Shown: positions 2,937-58,189 of the stretch, piece by piece
Layout: each line of letters begins with the position of its first letter
Position numbering within the stretch: the stretch's first letter is position 1
Origin: a virus
Length of the DNA: 64,000 bases
Virus record (IMG/VR): IMGVR_UViG_3300046362_000084
Coordinates: 1-64,000 of that record
Reading direction: 5' to 3' (one strand)
Notes under the pieces: generated by a model
Database searches by the model: none
What the model was told of the DNA's origin: nothing
The model's input: the letters and a program-made list of their open reading frames with translations, nothing else
Translations under genes and position numbers: made by a program

Positions 2937-4079
2937 ATGGCAAAAGAAAAAACAGAAGAGTTCCCCAAAGAGAAAAAAAATCCGCTAGAGTTATTCCTTA
3001 GCGAATACAAGGACGATCATTATAATTTTTGCCCAGAAGTATCGTTTAAGGTATCTAGCGGTAGCATAGAACTTGACCTCGCCATGGACGGAGGTTTCAC
3101 GCCGGGAATCCATCGATTCGGTGGAGCGAGTGAATCTGGAAAAACGAGCCAAAGCCTTGAAGTCGTAAAAAACTTTCTTCAATCAGTTCCGAATTCAAAA
3201 GCCCTTTACGTTAAGGCCGAGGGTAGAATGTCGAAAAAGATGCAAAAAAGGAGTGGCATTAAATTCGTAACCGAACCGAAAGAGTGGGTTCCGGGGACAT
3301 GCTTTATTTTAAAATGCAATGTTTACGAACCTGTCGCTCAATTTATTTACGATTTAATTAAAATTAATCCAGATAATTATCGGTATGCGTTTATTATCGA
3401 TAGTCTCGATGGAATGATGAAGAGATCCGATTTAAACAAGGATTTTACGGACGCCGTTCAAGTTTGCGGACCTAACGTTTTAACAAAATTATTATTTAAA
3501 AAGGTTTCCCTTCCTATGTCTGAGCTTGGACATATGATGATTGTCATTGTTCAGGTTATTGCAAAAATCGAAGACAAATACGCGATTAAGGAGCAGATGG
3601 CAATTAGCGGCGGCGGCGGAAATGCGGCAATTCATTTCGCCAATTATATTCTGACATTCAAACCAAGATATAAAGAGGGACTTATTCTTAAAAGCGGAGA
3701 TAAAGCCATTTTAGATTTTAGCGAAACAAATGTCATCGGGCATTGGGTAGGAGTTTTATTGGAAAAGACGGAAAACGAAAAAAGCAGATTACTGGTAAAG
3801 TATCCAGTCCTTTACTCTGCGGACGGAGAAGATGGACGCATTGCGACAGAGCTTGAAATTAAAAAAATGCTGTTGATGCTTGGCTTTATAACAACGGGTG
3901 GCGCGTGGATTTATTTTTCCGAAAATGCACTTGCAAAAATGCGGGAGGCCAAAATAGAGGATGTTCGGGACAAGGTTAATGGTGCGGCAAAATTTGACAA
4001 ATATATATCTCAACCAGAAATTTTGAATTTCTGGAAATCGACCCTCAGTAATTATATTTCCGCAAAAGATCTTGTATGA
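2937..4079 (+). CDS. uvsX: RecA/UvsX-like recombinase
   Basis: A 380-residue RecA-fold ATPase. The Walker A motif GGASESGKTS is near residues 61-70 and the hydrophobic strand YAFIIDSLDGM near 148 gives Walker B. SGGGGNAAIHFANYIL corresponds to the DNA-binding loop and downstream strand of UvsX/RecA proteins. It likely forms filaments on ssDNA and drives recombination-dependent replication and repair. The ATG has no Shine-Dalgarno sequence. It is placed unusually, inside the glycan cassette, and overlaps the fucosyltransferase-like gene by four bases. The symbol is by analogy with T4; the sequence is diverged. Confidence 0.8.
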   Translation: MAKEKTEEFPKEKKNPLELFLSEYKDDHYNFCPEVSFKVSSGSIELDLAMDGGFTPGIHRFGGASESGKTSQSLEVVKNFLQSVPNSKALYVKAEGRMSKKMQKRSGIKFVTEPKEWVPGTCFILKCNVYEPVAQFIYDLIKINPDNYRYAFIIDSLDGMMKRSDLNKDFTDAVQVCGPNVLTKLLFKKVSLPMSELGHMMIVIVQVIAKIEDKYAIKEQMAISGGGGNAAIHFANYILTFKPRYKEGLILKSGDKAILDFSETNVIGHWVGVLLEKTENEKSRLLVKYPVLYSADGEDGRIATELEIKKMLLMLGFITTGGAWIYFSENALAKMREAKIEDVRDKVNGAAKFDKYISQPEILNFWKSTLSNYISAKDLV

Positions 4080-4885
4080 TAATTACAAACGCAGGCATCG
4101 GATATAACGGACGATTGGGAAATCAGCTTTTCCAATTTGCCTCCCTGTATGGCATTGCACGGCGTTGCGGGCTTGAAGTGGCACTGCCCTTCTCTAACAT
4201 GCTTGAGAGGCTTGAAACGGGCGCTGACGGGCTGGAAAGGCCCGTCAAGTTCAACCTGCCCGACATATTCGAAGGGGTTGGCGAATTTGTTGATCTCAAT
4301 ATTATTCGCGGCCATTTTCGAACACTATCAGAACAATCGTTTACTTATGATTCGTATCTAATGACGGAGTGCGTGGCGCATGGAAATATCAATCTTCACG
4401 GCTACTTTCAAAGTCCAATGTATTTTGATGCATATCGGGAAGATTTGTTAGACATTTTGGAGTTCAATCATGAACTTATAAACTTCAAGAGGGGCAAACC
4501 GCTAGTTTCTATTCATGTTAGACGTGGCGACTATCTAGCCCTTCAGAACAATCACCCTGTTTGCTCTCACGAATATTACGATACCGCGATTAATTATTTC
4601 GACGGATGCAACTTTATGTTTTTCTCGGACGATATCGGATGGTGTAAGGAAAATTTTGTTGGACCGCAGTTTTTATTTTCTGAGGGTTTCAGCGAATCCG
4701 AAGATTTGCAGCGCATGAGACTTTGCGATCACAATATCATCGCCAACAGCACCTTCAGTTGGTGGGGCGCTTATTTAAATAAAAATAAAAGAAAGGAAAT
4801 TATTGCGCCGCGCCGTTGGTTCGGGGATGATTATTCACAAAATAACCCTAGGGAGGTTTTGTCAATCGCAACAAAGTTAATCTGA
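4076..4885 (+). CDS. Alpha-1,2-fucosyltransferase-like (GT11)
   Basis: A 269-residue protein with the marks of glycosyltransferase family 11. GRLGNQLFQFA near residues 12-22 is the N-terminal signature, SIHVRRGDY near 145-153 is the GDP-fucose-binding motif I, and NSTFSWWGAYL near 223-233 is the third conserved motif. It would transfer L-fucose from GDP-fucose to a galactose-type acceptor. The nearby GDP-mannose dehydratase makes the precursor pathway plausible. Its length is close to the bacterial family norm of about 290. Confidence 0.88.
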   Translation: MIITNAGIGYNGRLGNQLFQFASLYGIARRCGLEVALPFSNMLERLETGADGLERPVKFNLPDIFEGVGEFVDLNIIRGHFRTLSEQSFTYDSYLMTECVAHGNINLHGYFQSPMYFDAYREDLLDILEFNHELINFKRGKPLVSIHVRRGDYLALQNNHPVCSHEYYDTAINYFDGCNFMFFSDDIGWCKENFVGPQFLFSEGFSESEDLQRMRLCDHNIIANSTFSWWGAYLNKNKRKEIIAPRRWFGDDYSQNNPREVLSIATKLI

Positions 4886-5547
4886 TGCATAAGTTAGTTT
4901 TATACTATAACGAAAAGTTTGAAGAAAAAGCGAAGAGGTTGGCAAGCAAAGGTCGATTGTATTTTGGCGAGGTAATAGAATATAAAGAGGAGTATTTTAA
5001 GCAAACTTCGTTTTATAATAGGTATTCTTATATTGCACAGGAAGAAAGGGGCGCGGGCTATTGGATTTGGAAGCCCTATATTCTTCTTGACTCAATTACA
5101 AGATCAACCGATGGGGATGAAATTCTATATTTGGATTGCGGCGACGACTTTAACTTTGATATCAAAAAAACTTTGAGCCAGTGCCTTAGAGATAGTGATA
5201 TATGTTTAACTGCCGGGTCATTCAAATCCTCTAAATATACGAAAAGAGACTGTTTCGAAATGATGGAGTGTGATGAAAGAAAGTATTGGGATTCAATACA
5301 GATTGAAGCGGGGGTAATCGCATTTAGGGCGAACCAAAACTCAAAGAGAATATTTAAAGAGTGGCTTTCGTATTGCTGCGATGAAAATATCTTAACCGAC
5401 ATTCCAAATATTTGTGGGAAGCCGAACTTTCCAGATTTTATTGATCACCGTCACGATCAAAGTATATTAAGCAATCTTGCTATAAGTTTAAATCTAAAAA
5501 TATCCCAAGAAATAAGAAAATCCGTAGTTTGCAACGTAAATGATTAG
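4885..5547 (+). CDS. Putative glycosyltransferase
   Basis: A 220-residue protein that starts on the last base of the previous stop codon (TGATG). The segment GAGYWIWKPYI near residue 58 followed by EILYLDCGDDF near 85 resembles the substrate loop and DxD-type metal site of a GT-A enzyme seen in bacterial polysaccharide loci. IEAGVIAFRAN near 140 fits the acceptor region. A later HRHDQSIL motif near 193 also occurs in such proteins. Family assignment is uncertain, but context and these motifs support sugar transfer. Confidence 0.6.
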   Translation: MHKLVLYYNEKFEEKAKRLASKGRLYFGEVIEYKEEYFKQTSFYNRYSYIAQEERGAGYWIWKPYILLDSITRSTDGDEILYLDCGDDFNFDIKKTLSQCLRDSDICLTAGSFKSSKYTKRDCFEMMECDERKYWDSIQIEAGVIAFRANQNSKRIFKEWLSYCCDENILTDIPNICGKPNFPDFIDHRHDQSILSNLAISLNLKISQEIRKSVVCNVND

Positions 5548-16656: not shown

Positions 16657-17268
16657 ATGAATAACTTAGTCCTAGACACTGAAACAGAGTCGCTTTCGCT
16701 TGGCCTATCAAGACCTTGGCAGTTAGCCTTTATTTTTGAGGAAAACGGCAAAATTAAAAAAAGCGTCAATCACCACATCGATATCCATGATTTGAATGTT
16801 GGCAAGGACGCGGCCCGAATTACCGGATTTAATATAGACAAATATAATCAAATTAAAATTCCCGCGAATGATGTTATTGACGATATTGAGCCTTATTTGA
16901 TGAATGAAAATAATCGTTTAATTGGCCATAATATTCTTGGATTTGACATTTTTATGCTTGCCACATTATATAAGTATGCGGGCCGTAAGTTAGATTTTAA
17001 GAAAATTGTTTACCGATTTTACGATACGCTTTGCATTGCCCGCGCTCAACATTATGAGTCGCCACCGCCAAAAGATAAATACGAGTGGCTAGCTTGGCAG
17101 TATAAACACCTCGCAAAATTCGATAAATCATTTAAGGGAAGCCTTGCGGCCTGTTGTAAAAGAAACGATATTGAGGTTGACGAGACAAAAACGCATAACG
17201 CGCTTTATGACATTGAATTAAATTTAAAACTTTTTAATAAATTAAAATATGCCCTCGACCTTAATTAA
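16657..17268 (+). CDS. DnaQ-like 3'-5' exonuclease (DEDDh)
   Basis: A 203-residue protein. VLDTETESL near residues 5-13 is Exo I (D-x-E), LIGHNILGFDIFML near 88-101 is Exo II with its Asp, and HNALYDIELNLKLF near 182-195 is Exo III with His and Asp, placing it in the DEDDh group. It most likely proofreads for the polymerase III alpha encoded directly downstream, whose start it overlaps by 20 bases. Confidence 0.85.
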   Translation: MNNLVLDTETESLSLGLSRPWQLAFIFEENGKIKKSVNHHIDIHDLNVGKDAARITGFNIDKYNQIKIPANDVIDDIEPYLMNENNRLIGHNILGFDIFMLATLYKYAGRKLDFKKIVYRFYDTLCIARAQHYESPPPKDKYEWLAWQYKHLAKFDKSFKGSLAACCKRNDIEVDETKTHNALYDIELNLKLFNKLKYALDLN

Positions 17269-19570
17269 GGATTCATTTTTCGATGATTTTCAAGACGTAA
17301 CTTTCGACGTTAAAGGCGTTAGGTTGCCAAAAATTATCATTCCGCATCACTATTACGCGAAATTAGGTATTGATGAGTCCACCGACAACGAAGAGTTCCT
17401 TAAAATTCTGTGCCGTAACGGAATTAAGTCAAAAGGCTTAACTGGGAAAAAAGAGTATATGACTCGTTTAAAATACGAGTATGAAATCGTTAGTGAGATT
17501 GGCTTTTCAGATTATTTTATTCTAATTTGGGACGTTATTAACTTTTGCCACGAAAATGATATTCCAGTCGGAAAAGGCCGTGGAAGCGCGGCGGGTTCAT
17601 TAATCTTGTATCTCATTGGGGTGACAGGAATTGATCCAATTCAGAATGACCTTATCTTTGAGCGGTTTGTATCTCGCACGCGGGCGAAAAGTCAAATCAT
17701 TGATGGTGTTAGATACATTGACGGCGACATGGCTCCAGACGTTGACCTTGACATTTGCACAGATCGACGCGAAGAAGTAATTAATTACTTAAAAAATAAA
17801 TACAGCGGCAAATTCTGCAAGCTTCCAACCATTTCTACGTTGGCAACACGAGCGGCCATTAAGGACGTTTGTAAAATTCATGGTGGCTTTACAGAAGACG
17901 AACTGAACGTTTTAACAAAAACAATTCCGGTCAAATACGGCCAGCCGCTTTCCATTGTTGATAGTATCGAGGCGAGCGAGGTTTTCGCGCAGTTCGCGGA
18001 AGAGAACCCTGAAATCATAGAGTGCGCCAAGGTTGTTGAAGACATGATGCGCCAAAAGGGCAGTCACGCTTCTGCGTATCTTATCGGATATTATGATTTT
18101 GACCAATATCTTCCGTGCGAACTCGATCTAAACGGCGAAGTTGTTTGCTCGTTTGATATGAGTTACGCGCAGAAGGAAACCATCAAGCTGGACTTGCTTG
18201 GGCTTCACGGCGTAACACTTGTTTCAAGAATTGAGAAAAGTCTTGGAATTAGTTTTGATAATTTTGACCCCAACAACCCTGAAATCTATCAACTTTCAGA
18301 AGAGGGCGACTTGCCATACGGATTGTTCCAAATTGGTGCGGATGCTAACTACAGGGTATTTAAAAAAGTAAAGCCTCAGAATTGGGAGGAGCTTAGTGCA
18401 GTGGTTTCTTTAGCAAGGCCCGGAAGCCTAGCATACGTGGATGATTACATTAAAAACGAATATAATGACTATTGGGGCAACGCAAAAATGCGCGAACTAC
18501 TGGGAAAAACCCACGGAGTTCCTATATATCAGGAGACTACGATGAAAATATGCTCAGAAGTCTTTGGCTTCTCTCTTGATGAGGCGGAAGTTTTAAGAAA
18601 AATCATTGGTAAAAAACAGGTTGAAAAAGTAAAAGAGTGGGAAGCTAAGATTTTTTCGGCGGCAGAGAAAAGACAAATGCCAAAAGAGCTAGCGAAGTTT
18701 TTTTGGGACTTGCTAAACGAGTCGGCTAACTACTCCTTTAATAAATGCCTTTCGCCGGAAACTGAAGTCGAGACCCCGAATGGAAATAAGCCAATTAGGG
18801 ACGTTTCAATAGGTGAGAGGGTAAAAGGGTTTAGTGTCGAAGACTCGCGCCATGTTTGGGTAGAGGCGATTGATGTAATGAGAAGTGAATCCAAGCTTTT
18901 TGAATTCACTTTTGAGGACGGAAGAACAATAAAGTGTTCTATGGAGCATAAATTTCTAACAGACGAGGGTATGCTACCAATAAAGCTTATTGTTGAAAAG
19001 GATTTAGAAGTAATTTGCGAAAACCTTGAGGTTTTCAAGCCTGTTATGGGGTATAAAAATTATTATGAAATATCAAATAAGGGAACCATCAAGAGTCTCC
19101 CCAGACGGGGGAGGGTTGGACTGAGAATCTATGGGGGGTCAATAATGAAGCCTGAATTGGAAAAGGACGGATATCACAAAGTCATGTTGCAGACCACGAC
19201 ACACGGAAGAAAAAGATTTTTTGTCCATAGGCTTGTTGCAGAAGCATTTCTGCCTAATGTTAAAAAATTGTCATCAGTAAATCATAAAGACGGAAACAAA
19301 ACTAACAACTGTGTAGAAAATTTAGAATGGATTAGCGTGAGGGACAATAATCGACATGCATTTTCCACGGGTTTAAATAAATACAATAACGCTCTACCCG
19401 TTTTAAGGGGCGCAAAACACAACATGGCAAAGCTAGCGGACTCGGACGTAATAGAAATTAGAAGAAAATTTTTATCTGGCGAACGAATCAAAAACATATC
19501 ACTTAGCCACGGAATAACCTATGATAATGCTTGGTCTATTTGTAAGCGCAAATCTTGGAAACATATTTGA
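17249..19570 (+). CDS. dnaE: DNA polymerase III alpha, N-part, with split intein N-half and HNH endonuclease
   Basis: A 773-residue protein. Residues 1-499 are the Pol III alpha palm, thumb and fingers region: GKGRGSAAGSLILYLIGVTG near 109-128, catalytic PDVDLDIC near 162-169 and KLDLLGL near 313-319, giving the three aspartates. The protein ends at SFNK followed by Cys at residue 500, where an intein begins (CLSPETEVETP). Its N-half runs to about residue 595, then NUMOD4 and HNH motifs follow to the TGA. The PHP domain is absent and lies in a separate gene. The rest of the polymerase is in the next ORF, in another frame, starting inside this stop codon. Confidence 0.88.
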   Translation: MPSTLIKDSFFDDFQDVTFDVKGVRLPKIIIPHHYYAKLGIDESTDNEEFLKILCRNGIKSKGLTGKKEYMTRLKYEYEIVSEIGFSDYFILIWDVINFCHENDIPVGKGRGSAAGSLILYLIGVTGIDPIQNDLIFERFVSRTRAKSQIIDGVRYIDGDMAPDVDLDICTDRREEVINYLKNKYSGKFCKLPTISTLATRAAIKDVCKIHGGFTEDELNVLTKTIPVKYGQPLSIVDSIEASEVFAQFAEENPEIIECAKVVEDMMRQKGSHASAYLIGYYDFDQYLPCELDLNGEVVCSFDMSYAQKETIKLDLLGLHGVTLVSRIEKSLGISFDNFDPNNPEIYQLSEEGDLPYGLFQIGADANYRVFKKVKPQNWEELSAVVSLARPGSLAYVDDYIKNEYNDYWGNAKMRELLGKTHGVPIYQETTMKICSEVFGFSLDEAEVLRKIIGKKQVEKVKEWEAKIFSAAEKRQMPKELAKFFWDLLNESANYSFNKCLSPETEVETPNGNKPIRDVSIGERVKGFSVEDSRHVWVEAIDVMRSESKLFEFTFEDGRTIKCSMEHKFLTDEGMLPIKLIVEKDLEVICENLEVFKPVMGYKNYYEISNKGTIKSLPRRGRVGLRIYGGSIMKPELEKDGYHKVMLQTTTHGRKRFFVHRLVAEAFLPNVKKLSSVNHKDGNKTNNCVENLEWISVRDNNRHAFSTGLNKYNNALPVLRGAKHNMAKLADSDVIEIRRKFLSGERIKNISLSHGITYDNAWSICKRKSWKHI
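18746..19570 (+). mobile_element. Intein N-half with NUMOD4/HNH homing endonuclease
   Basis: The intein starts at the Cys codon 18746-18748. Block A is CLSPETEVETPNGNKPIRDV and block B is GRTIKCSMEHKFL, with Ser for the usual Thr in the T-x-x-H motif. After about 95 residues comes a NUMOD4 motif (GYKNYYEISNKGTIKSLPR), then KDGYHKVMLQ and FFVHRLVAEAFLPN, and an HNH motif (VNHKDGNKTNNCVENLEW). A small helix-turn-helix-like tail ends at TGA. The insertion point is between Lys and Ser of the conserved FNKSHAAAYS active-site region. That is three residues after the cyanobacterial DnaE split-intein site as I recall it (Tyr/Cys of YCFNKSHS). Confidence 0.85.
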
Positions 19571-19683
19571 TGAAAAAGATAAAAATTATTACATTTAAAG
19601 AAATTGAGGACAAGGAAAGCTACGACTTGGAAATAGACAGTAAGGATCATAACTTTTATGCCAACGGAATCGTTGTTTCTAAC
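19570..19683 (+). mobile_element. Intein C-half
   Basis: A 38-residue segment with block G at its end: DHNFYANGIVVSN, then Ser as the +1 extein nucleophile. It closely follows the layout of known 36-38 residue split-intein C-fragments (short basic start, D-x-x-x-x-x-D-H-N-F, final Asn). The penultimate residue is Ser, not His, as in some cyanobacterial DnaE inteins. It is encoded in a different frame from the N-half, so it must be made as a separate polypeptide unless a frameshift joins them. Confidence 0.85.
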
Positions 19684-20730
19684 TCTCACGCCGCAGCCTA
19701 TTCTCACCTTTCGGCCCTAACCCTTTATTTGAAATATAAGTATCCACAACACTTTTATACTGAGTGCCTTAGAATGGCTGAAAATAAGGCGGACAGTCAA
19801 GACCACGTTGCTCGTATCCAACAAGAGCTAGCGTTCTTCAACATCAAGTTGCTGCCGCCCGATCTAATCAATAGTAAGGAAAACTTTACAATCGAAGGCG
19901 ACAACATTCGCTATGGGTTCTCAAGTATCAAGGGTGTGAGTGAAAAATCACTTTCTGCGATGAAATCCTTTTTGGTTTCTCCAAAGACGAACAAGTTTGA
20001 GGTTTTCAGCGCTGCCGAAAACTGCAAGTTGAACGTTGGTGTTGTTTGCGCCATGATCCAATCGGGAATGTTAAGCAACGTTTCTCCAGACCGGGAAACC
20101 CTTGTTTTTGAAGCTCAAGTATGGGGTAAATTAACCGACAAGGAAAAAGTTTTCTGTCTTGAACGCGGACAGGATTATGAATATAACCTTTTACTTATGG
20201 TGAAGAACATTCATTCATGGGTAAATGATGCGGGCAAAAAGATCGCGGCGAAAACAAGGCTTGAGACAATTCGCAAGCATTGTGAGAAATACAAAGAAAT
20301 CTATTTCCAAAATAAAAAGAACGCCCGACTTGCTTCATATTACTACGAAAAGAAAATTCTCGGATTCTCCTATTCGTCAAACCTGAAAAGTGTTTTCGTC
20401 AGCGAACGCCCATCGATCAAAAATATCCAACAAATCAAAAATCTCTACGGGAAGCAAAAGATTGAGGGCGTATTTGAGGTTGCTGAAGTCAAGAAAGGCG
20501 TTAGCGGGCGCGGAAACAAGTATTTGAAGCTTGTTGTTCAAGATGAAACGGGACATTTCGACGCGATGATTGTTGGTGAGAAATACGATAATTTTGCAGC
20601 GAAGTTTCCTGACCCCGATGTGGGCGACGTTGTTTTCATCATGGGCGAGAAAACGGAGGAAATTATTTGGTTAAATAGCGTGTCTATCCAAACTCAAAAA
20701 ATCTATCTCAAATTGGCAGATATTAAATAA
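19570..20730 (+). CDS. dnaE: DNA polymerase III alpha, C-part, preceded by intein C-half
   Basis: A 386-residue protein from the ATG that overlaps the preceding stop as TGATG; an in-frame ATG at 19555 is less likely. Residues 1-38 are an intein C-terminal half, and from Ser 39 the sequence SHAAAYSHLSALTLYLKYKY resumes Pol III alpha. The helix-hairpin-helix region follows, and the last 100 residues form an OB fold (KIEGVFEVAEVKKGVSGRGN). Trans-splicing with the upstream protein would give an 847-residue polymerase without PHP domain. No beta-binding motif was identified with confidence. Confidence 0.86.
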   Translation: MKKIKIITFKEIEDKESYDLEIDSKDHNFYANGIVVSNSHAAAYSHLSALTLYLKYKYPQHFYTECLRMAENKADSQDHVARIQQELAFFNIKLLPPDLINSKENFTIEGDNIRYGFSSIKGVSEKSLSAMKSFLVSPKTNKFEVFSAAENCKLNVGVVCAMIQSGMLSNVSPDRETLVFEAQVWGKLTDKEKVFCLERGQDYEYNLLLMVKNIHSWVNDAGKKIAAKTRLETIRKHCEKYKEIYFQNKKNARLASYYYEKKILGFSYSSNLKSVFVSERPSIKNIQQIKNLYGKQKIEGVFEVAEVKKGVSGRGNKYLKLVVQDETGHFDAMIVGEKYDNFAAKFPDPDVGDVVFIMGEKTEEIIWLNSVSIQTQKIYLKLADIK

Positions 20731-54534: not shown

Positions 54535-57243
54535 TTAAGCTAAAAATCTAGCCTTAAACATGTTTTTTTTCTTCTCAGGAGTCTTAAGCAGGGCAAAGTA
54601 ACAAATTAATCCCCAGTTAGCCAAAACAAGTGCGGAATAAGAGTCTTTACGTGTTTTTGTTGGACCCGTCTGTTTCTGAAGGTTGGACGGAAGGTCAAAC
54701 CTTTGGGTTCCGGTTGCCCCTGTTGTAGCCTCAATAAGGGCGCACTGATTTTTTGTTTTACTAATAACCAAACTCTGATTATCAATAAAGTCGATTCGCT
54801 TGGTTTCAAGATCTTCCTTTTTGTTTCCGTAAATCTCAGTTTCGTTGAACTTGAGTTTTTGGATAGGGATGTCATCAAAATTAACTCCCTCAGCTTCCGT
54901 AGGCGCGGCAAACCAAATTCTTTTGCCGTCAATTGCGCCAGAAAGGCTTTCGTTAGCCGTTCTAATCCACTGAGCGCTGAAATACTGAGAATGAACAATA
55001 CGCTTTACTTTGCCCCCATTGTTATAAGATTGGCGAGCCTTAAACATTTCTTCCTCATCGAATACTTCAAATTCAGCGTCAAAAAAGTCCAAAGCAAACG
55101 GTAAAACCCCAAGATCATTAATATCCTTCACAAATTTAGCTCCACCCGCTTTATCGACAATCATATAAACAATGTTAAAATTATCAAAAATATATCGAAC
55201 GTAGTCCATTCGCTCAGAGAGGGAGCAAGACGCGACAGCATAACCATGAACCATATATCCATGTTGGTTGTCCTCATCTACCTCAAAAATTGTCATTGCG
55301 AAATCGTCAGACGTTTCGGACGCGTCATAGTTCGGGTCAATAGCTAGCAAATAATTCTTCGCGCCGTCCCCTTTAATTTTAACTGTTGGGCTTTCACCCT
55401 TTTTAAGGCTTATTTCATACAGCTTCTTTGCAGAGTAGAACCCCGAACTGTCGCCAGTAAATTTGGCCATATATTCTCGGTCGAACTGAGCGCGGGAGTA
55501 ACTTTTGCGGGCGTTTTCAACGTTGCTTTCGTCATAAAGGCCGACCGGAGCCATTTCACAACTCATTTGCATGATAGCGTGAGAAACGTTCTTGGCCGAT
55601 TGATCGTTGATTTTCTCAGAATAGTCTTTATACATTTCATAAAGATATTCAAATTCATAACTTGCGGAGGTAAGCCCAATAAGTTTATTATTCGGAAATA
55701 TCGTCCTGTCTTCCGGCTTCATAAGCCCAGCCTCAATAAGTTCGATTTCCGCCTCGCGAACCTTTTGGCGTTCACGCGGATCAATCTGAATAGCCATGAA
55801 GGGAAGTAGAACTTCATTGATGACCTTTTCGGATAAAAGCAAAAGTTCGTCAATAACCAATAAATTAAAACGATATCCCCGAATTTTATCGCCTGAATTA
55901 TGACTACAAAATCCATTTACGATATAGTTATTTTCTACAGGAACGCGCAGATCATAGGTCTGCCTTTCACCCAGTGGAGTAACATTTCTAACGCAATCAA
56001 TAAAAAAGTCTTTTCCGAACCCATGCTTGACCCTCCTTTTTGGTGCGGCGGCAATTACACTTTCTCTAACTTTGATTTTTTTGGCATGTTTTTCAAAGAA
56101 ATGGCTTTTACCATCCCCAATTTCCTTACCAAAGACGCGGATATTTTTATAATTTAATTTAATTGAATTGCTTATTCTTGAAGAAACGATGCCAAAGCAC
56201 AGTAAATACTGTTGAATGTTCAACGCAATTTCCTCGTTAGCCAATTTAAGAGTCCAAACTTGATCGCCGCTCGCCCTCTTAAAAGACTTTACCCCTGTTT
56301 CAAAAAGGCCAGATAGAAAGCCCTTTCCGAACTCTTTGGTGCAACTGAAAATACGCTCCTCTTGAACTGAAGAGAAAAATTGCTCCGAACCGTATTTATA
56401 TCCAAGATCATACCCTAAATTGTATTCAGGCTGCGAGCATTCATACCTTTGCTTACTAAGCAGAATTCTATCTTGAAAGTTAAGCTGAGAGCAAATTTTC
56501 CAAACAAATTCTTCCCCATTATAAGCTAAAAATTCATGGTTTTCTCCAGCCGTTACCTTAAAGCCTTTTTTAGTAATAACTTCGTAACACTTTTGTTTTC
56601 CTGCGTTCAAAACGTGAGAAGCCCTAGAGCGAGACTTTAAAGTGTCCACAGATAGCGGGGAGTTCTCCCAACTATTGGGTTCGTCCTTTGCGTAATCTTC
56701 AATTTTAACAAGGCCCCGGTCAGATCTAACACGACTATTCGCGCCAAAACAGCCAAGCGGAATTGCAACAATCTTGGATTGTCCAATTTGCATTTCCCAC
56801 GCATCGCTTCTATGGCTAGGTTTGCCAACCAAGCACTGCCTAAGATATTTACCCCCCTCAGAGTATGCCATGCTTTCAATTTTAGAAAATATCGATCTTG
56901 CTTGACGGAAAGTTGAGCTGGTAATCCCGATTGTCACTCCGGGGTTAAAAATAGCATAAAGAGGAACAAATATCGCCGCGATAGTCGTTTTCCCGAGTCC
57001 TCGACCTGCGACACCGAGAAAATAATCGCGGCTATTCATTGCTCGAAGCATAATATCTTGAAACGGATAGATATCTACGCCCATCAAAAGGTTGGCTGCA
57101 AAAGCTGGATTTGCACAGCAAAATTTTGCAAAAGAAACCTGAGCGTCTCTTGAACTGATTTCCCCCTCAATTAATCCTAATTTTTTATTGGTATCCGTAA
57201 GGAACGGATCTTTTAAAGTATGGTAACCCTCCTGCCAAGCCAT
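54535..57243 (-). CDS. terL: Terminase large subunit, interrupted by an intein
   Basis: A 902-residue precursor from the ATG at 57243 (an earlier in-frame start at 57291 lies inside the upstream gene). GVAGRGLGKTTIAA near 77-90 is Walker A. The intein starts at Cys 165 and ends at Asn 449. After it GDKIRGYRF and NLLVIDELLLL (Walker B with Glu) resume the ATPase. LAIDPNYDASETSDDF and MIVDKAGGAKFVKDI mark the RNase H-like nuclease. The spliced protein would be 617 residues, close to T4 gp17. It packages DNA through the portal encoded next. Confidence 0.9.
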   Translation of the reverse strand: MAWQEGYHTLKDPFLTDTNKKLGLIEGEISSRDAQVSFAKFCCANPAFAANLLMGVDIYPFQDIMLRAMNSRDYFLGVAGRGLGKTTIAAIFVPLYAIFNPGVTIGITSSTFRQARSIFSKIESMAYSEGGKYLRQCLVGKPSHRSDAWEMQIGQSKIVAIPLGCFGANSRVRSDRGLVKIEDYAKDEPNSWENSPLSVDTLKSRSRASHVLNAGKQKCYEVITKKGFKVTAGENHEFLAYNGEEFVWKICSQLNFQDRILLSKQRYECSQPEYNLGYDLGYKYGSEQFFSSVQEERIFSCTKEFGKGFLSGLFETGVKSFKRASGDQVWTLKLANEEIALNIQQYLLCFGIVSSRISNSIKLNYKNIRVFGKEIGDGKSHFFEKHAKKIKVRESVIAAAPKRRVKHGFGKDFFIDCVRNVTPLGERQTYDLRVPVENNYIVNGFCSHNSGDKIRGYRFNLLVIDELLLLSEKVINEVLLPFMAIQIDPRERQKVREAEIELIEAGLMKPEDRTIFPNNKLIGLTSASYEFEYLYEMYKDYSEKINDQSAKNVSHAIMQMSCEMAPVGLYDESNVENARKSYSRAQFDREYMAKFTGDSSGFYSAKKLYEISLKKGESPTVKIKGDGAKNYLLAIDPNYDASETSDDFAMTIFEVDEDNQHGYMVHGYAVASCSLSERMDYVRYIFDNFNIVYMIVDKAGGAKFVKDINDLGVLPFALDFFDAEFEVFDEEEMFKARQSYNNGGKVKRIVHSQYFSAQWIRTANESLSGAIDGKRIWFAAPTEAEGVNFDDIPIQKLKFNETEIYGNKKEDLETKRIDFIDNQSLVISKTKNQCALIEATTGATGTQRFDLPSNLQKQTGPTKTRKDSYSALVLANWGLICYFALLKTPEKKKNMFKARFLA
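55897..56751 (-). mobile_element. Intein in TerL with decayed LAGLIDADG domain
   Basis: A 285-residue in-frame insertion. It starts CFGANSRVRSDRGLVKIEDY (block A with Cys1), has VTAGENHEFLAY (block B with His) and ends NNYIVNGFCSHN then Ser (blocks F and G, His-Asn). In the middle YNLGYDLGYKYG and FLSGLFETGV sit where the two LAGLIDADG helices should be, but the second lacks the D-A/G-D-G ending. The splicing residues look intact, so splicing should work while homing is probably lost. It separates Walker A from Walker B, so an unspliced terminase would be inactive. Confidence 0.87.
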
Positions 57244-57244
57244 A

Positions 57245-58189
57245 TTATAATGAGTCCTCCACAATTTTAATATCAAGCTCCCCAAGCTCATACATGAACT
57301 GAAGATCTACCGATTCGATTATGTTTTTATTATTTAAAAGCATTTTAATATATTCTTTTGCCTCTTCCCTCCCATCAACAAACAAAAATTGAACCTCCGG
57401 GAATTCGCGGGAAATTTTACGCAACCCATGAAACGCACTCTCACCTGTAACTTTTTGTTTTGTAAATTTTAAAGGAAGATAAGTGAAGCATTTTTGATAT
57501 GTTTCCTCTATTAAGACTACAATAGTTATATCCATAGCCCGTGCTTTTTCGCACTCTTTTCTAAACCTATCCAACCCCTTTGTAAAGGTTCCGATAAAGT
57601 CCGCTTTGGATTTACGGTCAACATGAACTCCGTTGTAGTTTTCTTTACTTAGTGTGTAGTCCCCAACATTAATTGTAGTTTTTTCACAATCAAAAAGGGG
57701 TTGTTGCTCCCGGGTATCAACAAGAATTTCGCATTCTTTGGATTCAAACTGCAACCAACGAGCGGAATAATCAAAATTAGAATTAATACCATTCGCCCGC
57801 GCCCGCTCAACAAACTCAAGGAAAAAACCCTCCTTGTCCATGAAATCGTAGCGTAGGTTTTTTGAAGACCTCCACTCACAGTATGTTGGAAGCCTTCCTC
57901 TTGATTTTGCGGAGCAGTCGGCCAACTGCTTCATTAAAACGTCTCCAGAAACCGCCTGTAGCCCATTGCGCCTAAGATAGGCGAACTCAGACCGCTTATC
58001 TATGAAAAGTCGAGTGGAATAATCTTCAACCCTTGAAAAGGGAATCGGGTTTCCGTTGAAAAGGTCAAACTTCGGGAAGTATTTTTCATAATATTCCTTT
58101 TGAGCCGTATTCTCAACCTTGGCCAAATGATTGTGTAGGCTCCGATAGGAATTGAACCCTAGGCCGCATATTTTGCATGTAAAATCCAT
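57245..58189 (-). CDS. ERCC4-type nuclease with C2H2 zinc finger
   Basis: A 314-residue protein. Residues 4-27 (CKICGLGFNSYRSLHNHL) are a C2H2-like zinc finger. The C-terminal half is an XPF/ERCC4 nuclease: ILVDTREQQPL near 155-165, NVGDYTL near 172-178 and VHVDRKSKADF near 189-199 give the V-D-x-R-E...G-D-Y...x-E/D-R-K core, with Asp in place of Glu before Arg-Lys. It likely cuts branched DNA. It ends two bases before TerL, which suggests a link with packaging or resolving replicated DNA. Confidence 0.8.
   Translation of the reverse strand: MDFTCKICGLGFNSYRSLHNHLAKVENTAQKEYYEKYFPKFDLFNGNPIPFSRVEDYSTRLFIDKRSEFAYLRRNGLQAVSGDVLMKQLADCSAKSRGRLPTYCEWRSSKNLRYDFMDKEGFFLEFVERARANGINSNFDYSARWLQFESKECEILVDTREQQPLFDCEKTTINVGDYTLSKENYNGVHVDRKSKADFIGTFTKGLDRFRKECEKARAMDITIVVLIEETYQKCFTYLPLKFTKQKVTGESAFHGLRKISREFPEVQFLFVDGREEAKEYIKMLLNNKNIIESVDLQFMYELGELDIKIVEDSL

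Follow-up and report, generated by a model that had tools for sequence, protein, structure and literature searches.

The gene for the large terminase subunit (TerL) in the stretch of viral DNA analysed here (the window, 64,000 nucleotides, positions 1 to 64,000 of IMG/VR record IMGVR_UViG_3300046362_000084) raises several questions: is the insertion between its ATPase motifs a functional intein, can it still home, and is it a fixed element, a regulator of DNA packaging or a stage on the way to loss? The interrupted gene belongs to the T4 gp17-type terminases, carrying both Walker motifs and matching Terminase_6N (PF03237; E=8.7e-9, 35.8 bits against a cut-off of 22), the PHROG terminase large subunit (E=7.9e-22) and T4 gp17 structures (E=5e-5). 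An alternative reading of the frame from a start at 57291 would give 918 residues. Three IMG/VR contigs, one of them of 166 kb, showed no mismatch to the window over the stretches compared; two of them, from independent assemblies, span the whole insert, and the third covers its 3' end. The ERCC4-type nuclease gene upstream is kept beside TerL throughout this terminase family.

The insertion interrupts a conserved loop, PLG-x-G-x-K-(I/L)-R-G, that immediately precedes Walker B; it lies 15 residues ahead of the Walker B Asp, with the flanks PLG / CFGANS...GFCSHN / SGDKIRG, and its removal leaves a 617-residue TerL in which the loop, PLGSGDKIRG, is as long as the ancestral one. Intein_splicing (PF14890) matched the TerL precursor above the Pfam cut-off (E=3e-13) and the intein alone with 54 bits against a cut-off of 35.8, the NCBIfam C-terminal intein profile scored above its cut-off and the N-terminal one slightly below, and the top Foldseek matches of the intein model were intein splicing domains. 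All splicing residues of the class-1 type are present (Cys1, block-B His72, His284-Asn285 and Ser+1), with block B reading GENH, its usual Thr replaced. Cys1, the block-B His, the C-block Asp and His-Asn, and Ser+1 are also all kept in a second carrier, L014, despite only 32% identity between the two inteins. The insert appears to be an intein of class-1 type (Cys1/Ser+1) that is predicted to splice. The first-pass annotation had recognized a 285-residue intein between the Walker motifs with intact splicing residues, and it proved exact in coordinates, length, flanks and product length. It had also proposed looking in relatives for an empty site before Ser-Gly-Asp; such sites were found in the loci L004 and L005, whose uninterrupted TerL proteins show 73% and 75% identity, respectively, with the window protein after splicing. 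Because both are without the insert, the alternative that it is a normal terminase domain is ruled out. A search of isolated phages found no relatives of the window intein, and the same search with the L014 intein gave weak partial matches only, including one to a Psychrobacillus phage terminase.

Features of the TerL locus in the window (positions are those of the window)
Feature	Position	Strand	Details and basis
TerL precursor	54535..57243	-	902 aa + stop; ATG at 57243, GGAGG upstream
C-extein	54535..55896	-	453 aa + stop; first residue Ser+1, codon 55894-55896
Walker B, LLVIDE	55846..55863	-	sequence; aligns with T4 gp17 IYIDE
Intein	55897..56751	-	285 aa, Cys1 to Asn285; profiles and empty site in relatives
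C-terminal splicing half, ...YDLRVPVENNYIVNGFCSHN	55897..56013	-	Pfam/NCBIfam profiles, comparison with L014
LAGLIDADG endonuclease remnant	56068..56436	-	boundaries approximate; comparison with intact inteins, profiles, model
N-terminal splicing half	56437..56751	-	end approximate; block-B His72
N-extein	56752..57243	-	164 aa, ends PLG; protein begins MAWQEG
Walker A, GRGLGKTT	56983..57006	-	sequence; aligns with T4 gp17 P-loop
ERCC4-type nuclease	57245-58189	-	immediately upstream of TerL; C2H2 zinc finger at the N-terminus

The homing domain has fared worse than the splicing domain. The helix of its first motif reads LGYDLGYKYGSEQ, without the acid, and most of repeat 1 is missing; repeat 2 is present, with FLSGLFETGV where LAGLIDADG is expected. 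The two window motifs, LGYKYGSE and GLFETGV, stand 32 residues apart, as do those of L014, compared with 97 and 93 residues in the intact inteins that related terminases carry; the first LAGLIDADG repeat is thus some 65 residues short. The catalytic acids are replaced in the window and L014 by SE and CQ, respectively, in the first motif and by TG and SA in the second. LAGLIDADG_3 reached 18.4 bits on the window intein (cut-off 22.5, E=0.0027), where only the latter half of the domain was matched, as against 64 and 61 bits on two intact control inteins. Neither mark of an active LAGLIDADG domain, two acid-bearing helices about 90-100 residues apart and a profile score over the cut-off, was found in the window intein, and its AlphaFold model comprised a splicing domain and a single LAGLIDADG half at residues 139-228 (mean pLDDT 66, better in the splicing halves); an earlier model built from two sequences was set aside as too poor (pLDDT 47). 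Judged by the known biochemistry of LAGLIDADG enzymes, the domain would be without the features needed for cutting. The first-pass description of a degenerate first helix and a lost second acid thus held, but decay has gone beyond point changes to the deletion of those 65 or so residues, and its view that the intein no longer homes is borne out in so far as most of repeat 1 and both catalytic acids, which homing should require, are gone. Because the spacing is the same in both inteins, the truncation would predate the split between the window and L014. Conservation between these two inteins is higher in residues 106-155 of the remnant (48%) than elsewhere (29%; P ~0.009, for a region picked post hoc), which may reflect a structural role.

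Other relatives also carry TerL inteins. L014 (a 211-kb contig, 64% extein identity) has its intein at exactly the position of the window intein, likewise flanked by Gly-1 and Ser+1, and a mini-intein with no LAGLIDADG sequence sits at this site in L191 (58% extein identity, 27% intein identity), whose 5' end lies off the contig, the first few residues being missing. The inteins of L048/L055/L080 and of L062 share with that of the window the terminase family, the intein fold and a similar C-terminal block, but lie in or beside Walker A (FLGIW/SRGMSK and SRGMSK/SFSTG), measure 404 and 430 residues, and retain two intact LAGLIDADG motifs (LLGYVLGDG/GLFDADG and FFGLLIGDG/GLFDADG). The Microcystis phage MaeS was rejected as a carrier sharing the window site, the match having merely run into the intein and the MaeS TerL being without insert. 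In L070 (1847-4984), TerL and the next, portal-like gene form one frame of 1046 residues, probably through an assembly or frameshift error.

L004 and L005 read IVAIPL/SGDKIRGYRF, with Ser+1 kept and the Gly codon at the insertion point (the last N-extein codon, 56752-56754 in the window) gone. A broader search yielded 74 further loci at 40-46% identity, all with an uninterrupted loop, which reads PLGDG in 73 of them and PRGDG in L086; L018 and L020 are likewise without insert, L018 also having PLGDG. Since the loop of these 74 loci and L018 contains the Gly, and PLGDG nearly throughout, the Gly would be ancestral and its codon lost in L004 and L005, and Ser+1, Asp elsewhere, appears peculiar to the clade of the window. 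The pair L004 and L005, with 22% of residues differing between them, have the scar in common, and purifying selection acts on their TerL (dN about 0.17, dS about 2.9); dS between the window and its relatives is saturated.

A tree of TerL alone left loss and a single gain indistinguishable, and the data set was therefore extended by five proteins encoded nearby (six in all: TerL, the ERCC4 nuclease, the product of the gene that follows TerL, taken as the portal, and three further neighbours). The resulting topology, (L191,(L014,(window,(L004,L005)))), had 99-100% support, and a single clade of carriers was rejected (p-AU 0.00013, or 0.0023 without L191). With TerL alone the grouping of the window with L004 and L005 was weak (67/62) and that with L014 was not rejected (p-AU 0.41); since TerL by itself does not resolve the window against L014, the gene may have recombined apart from its neighbours. 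The shortest history would be one gain and one loss, the loss falling on the branch where the junction-adjacent Gly codon vanished and fitting an in-frame deletion of 858 bp. The account we consider very probable runs as follows: the endonuclease had died by the time the window and L014 last shared an ancestor, for which reason the element would have been inherited vertically since then, being reduced to a mini-intein in L191 and lost from L004 and L005 by a deletion that also took the Gly codon. Its last step, a natural imprecise loss in which intein and one adjacent codon were deleted together, leaving a shortened functional ATPase loop and a relic Ser+1, we judge probable, with somewhat more reserve. 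A non-exhaustive literature search found no earlier report of scarred intein loss. The intein had been called fixed on first reading; this does not hold, as its two nearest relatives are without it and both the tree and the absence of the Gly codon indicate that it was lost once the homing domain had died. It is better described as probably inherited after the endonuclease had died and then reduced or lost in sister lineages.

Against this history stands the possibility that the intein entered one site on two or three independent occasions, or moved between related phages by ordinary recombination, with L004 and L005 never invaded and their missing Gly due to an unrelated one-codon deletion. 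Site-specific re-invasion is the usual route of intein spread, and intein identity to L014 and L191 falls far below extein identity; but the truncated, acid-less and equally spaced endonucleases of the window and L014 should be unable to home, the Gly deletion occurred on the same branch and beside the same junction as the inferred loss, and Ser+1, common to carriers and the empty pair, was in none of the outgroup loops examined, all of which makes repeated gain unlikely. We find it hardly credible that the surviving half-repeat still works, whether paired with itself or with another protein, or that a neighbouring nuclease homes the intein: the remaining motif is acid-less (FETG), and collaborative homing by the ERCC4-type gene directly upstream was rejected because this gene accompanies TerL genes with an empty site just as well and hence is not linked to the intein.

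The bearing of the intein on packaging follows from its position. The 902-residue precursor would fold, Cys1 would form a thioester with Gly-1, the chain would transfer to Ser+1 and Asn285, aided by His284, would cyclise to release the 617-residue TerL; the ATPase site would be split until then, so that packaging would need splicing. Because the intein splits the ATPase core, the unspliced precursor should be inactive, as has likewise been argued for other terminase inteins (PMC5050341). The late packaging checkpoint that the first-pass annotation drew from this arrangement is unsupported: nothing in the sequence data indicates regulated splicing, the closest relatives are without the intein, and since the intein-free TerL of L004 and L005 is under purifying selection, the element is not needed in that lineage. 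Nor is the idea new, having been published for the TerL inteins of cyanophage Mic1 (PMC7156551). That the intein is a retained regulator, whose slow or conditional splicing delays packaging to late infection, would agree with its site within the ATPase core, with the Mic1 proposal, with its having outlasted its own endonuclease and with the conservation of residues 106-155, picked post hoc. We nevertheless regard it as very unlikely given the loss in the nearest relatives under continued purifying selection and the ready splicing of mycobacteriophage terminase inteins in the assay used (PMC5050341); moreover, even a functionless intein is expected to persist, since getting rid of it takes a nearly exact deletion (PMC3229294).

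The window intein joins a known kind, the phage terminase inteins. Those of mycobacteriophages occupy sites TerL1-a to e and TerL6-f and, like that of the window, lie in the ATPase domain near functional motifs and must be spliced for an active motor; by description, the basis of this comparison, their sites are at Walker A, a helix, Walker B and the C-motif, as opposed to the loop before Walker B, and endonuclease activity was demonstrated for two of them, whereas the window domain appears dead (PMC5050341). Mic1 resembles the window in having inteins in a phage TerL and a packaging-control hypothesis, but has two, with Thr and Cys at +1 and one with a homing domain (PMC7156551).

A second intein system lies elsewhere in the window, where a natural split intein divides DNA polymerase III alpha between two genes (17249-19570 and 19570-20730, both + strand, overlapping at TGATG). 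Its Int-N starts at 18746 (...YSFNK/CLSPETEV) and continues in the same frame into a fused NUMOD4-HNH endonuclease, and its Int-C has 38 residues (19570-19683, ...VVSN/SHAAAYS). The 166-kb contig has the same arrangement; L102 and L103 carry the gene without interruption. By eye, L133, L158 and L173 (about 4000-5300) have split inteins at the same site (YSFN[K/R]/C), without an endonuclease between the halves in L133 and with a separate reading frame, apparently a different endonuclease, behind Int-N in L158 and L173.

In the homing-cycle model, an intein passes from invasion through endonuclease decay and the mini-intein stage to loss (PMC3229294, PMC7765530), and the post-invasion stages would all be represented at the window site. 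The model expects precise deletion, argued to be the only practical way to remove an intein (PMC3229294), whereas L004 and L005 seem to have lost one codon more. With a crippled endonuclease, a mini-intein and a probable scarred loss at one site in one phage clade, the loss step of the homing cycle would become testable, and the site speaks against the view that a terminase intein which persists must always be a regulatory switch.
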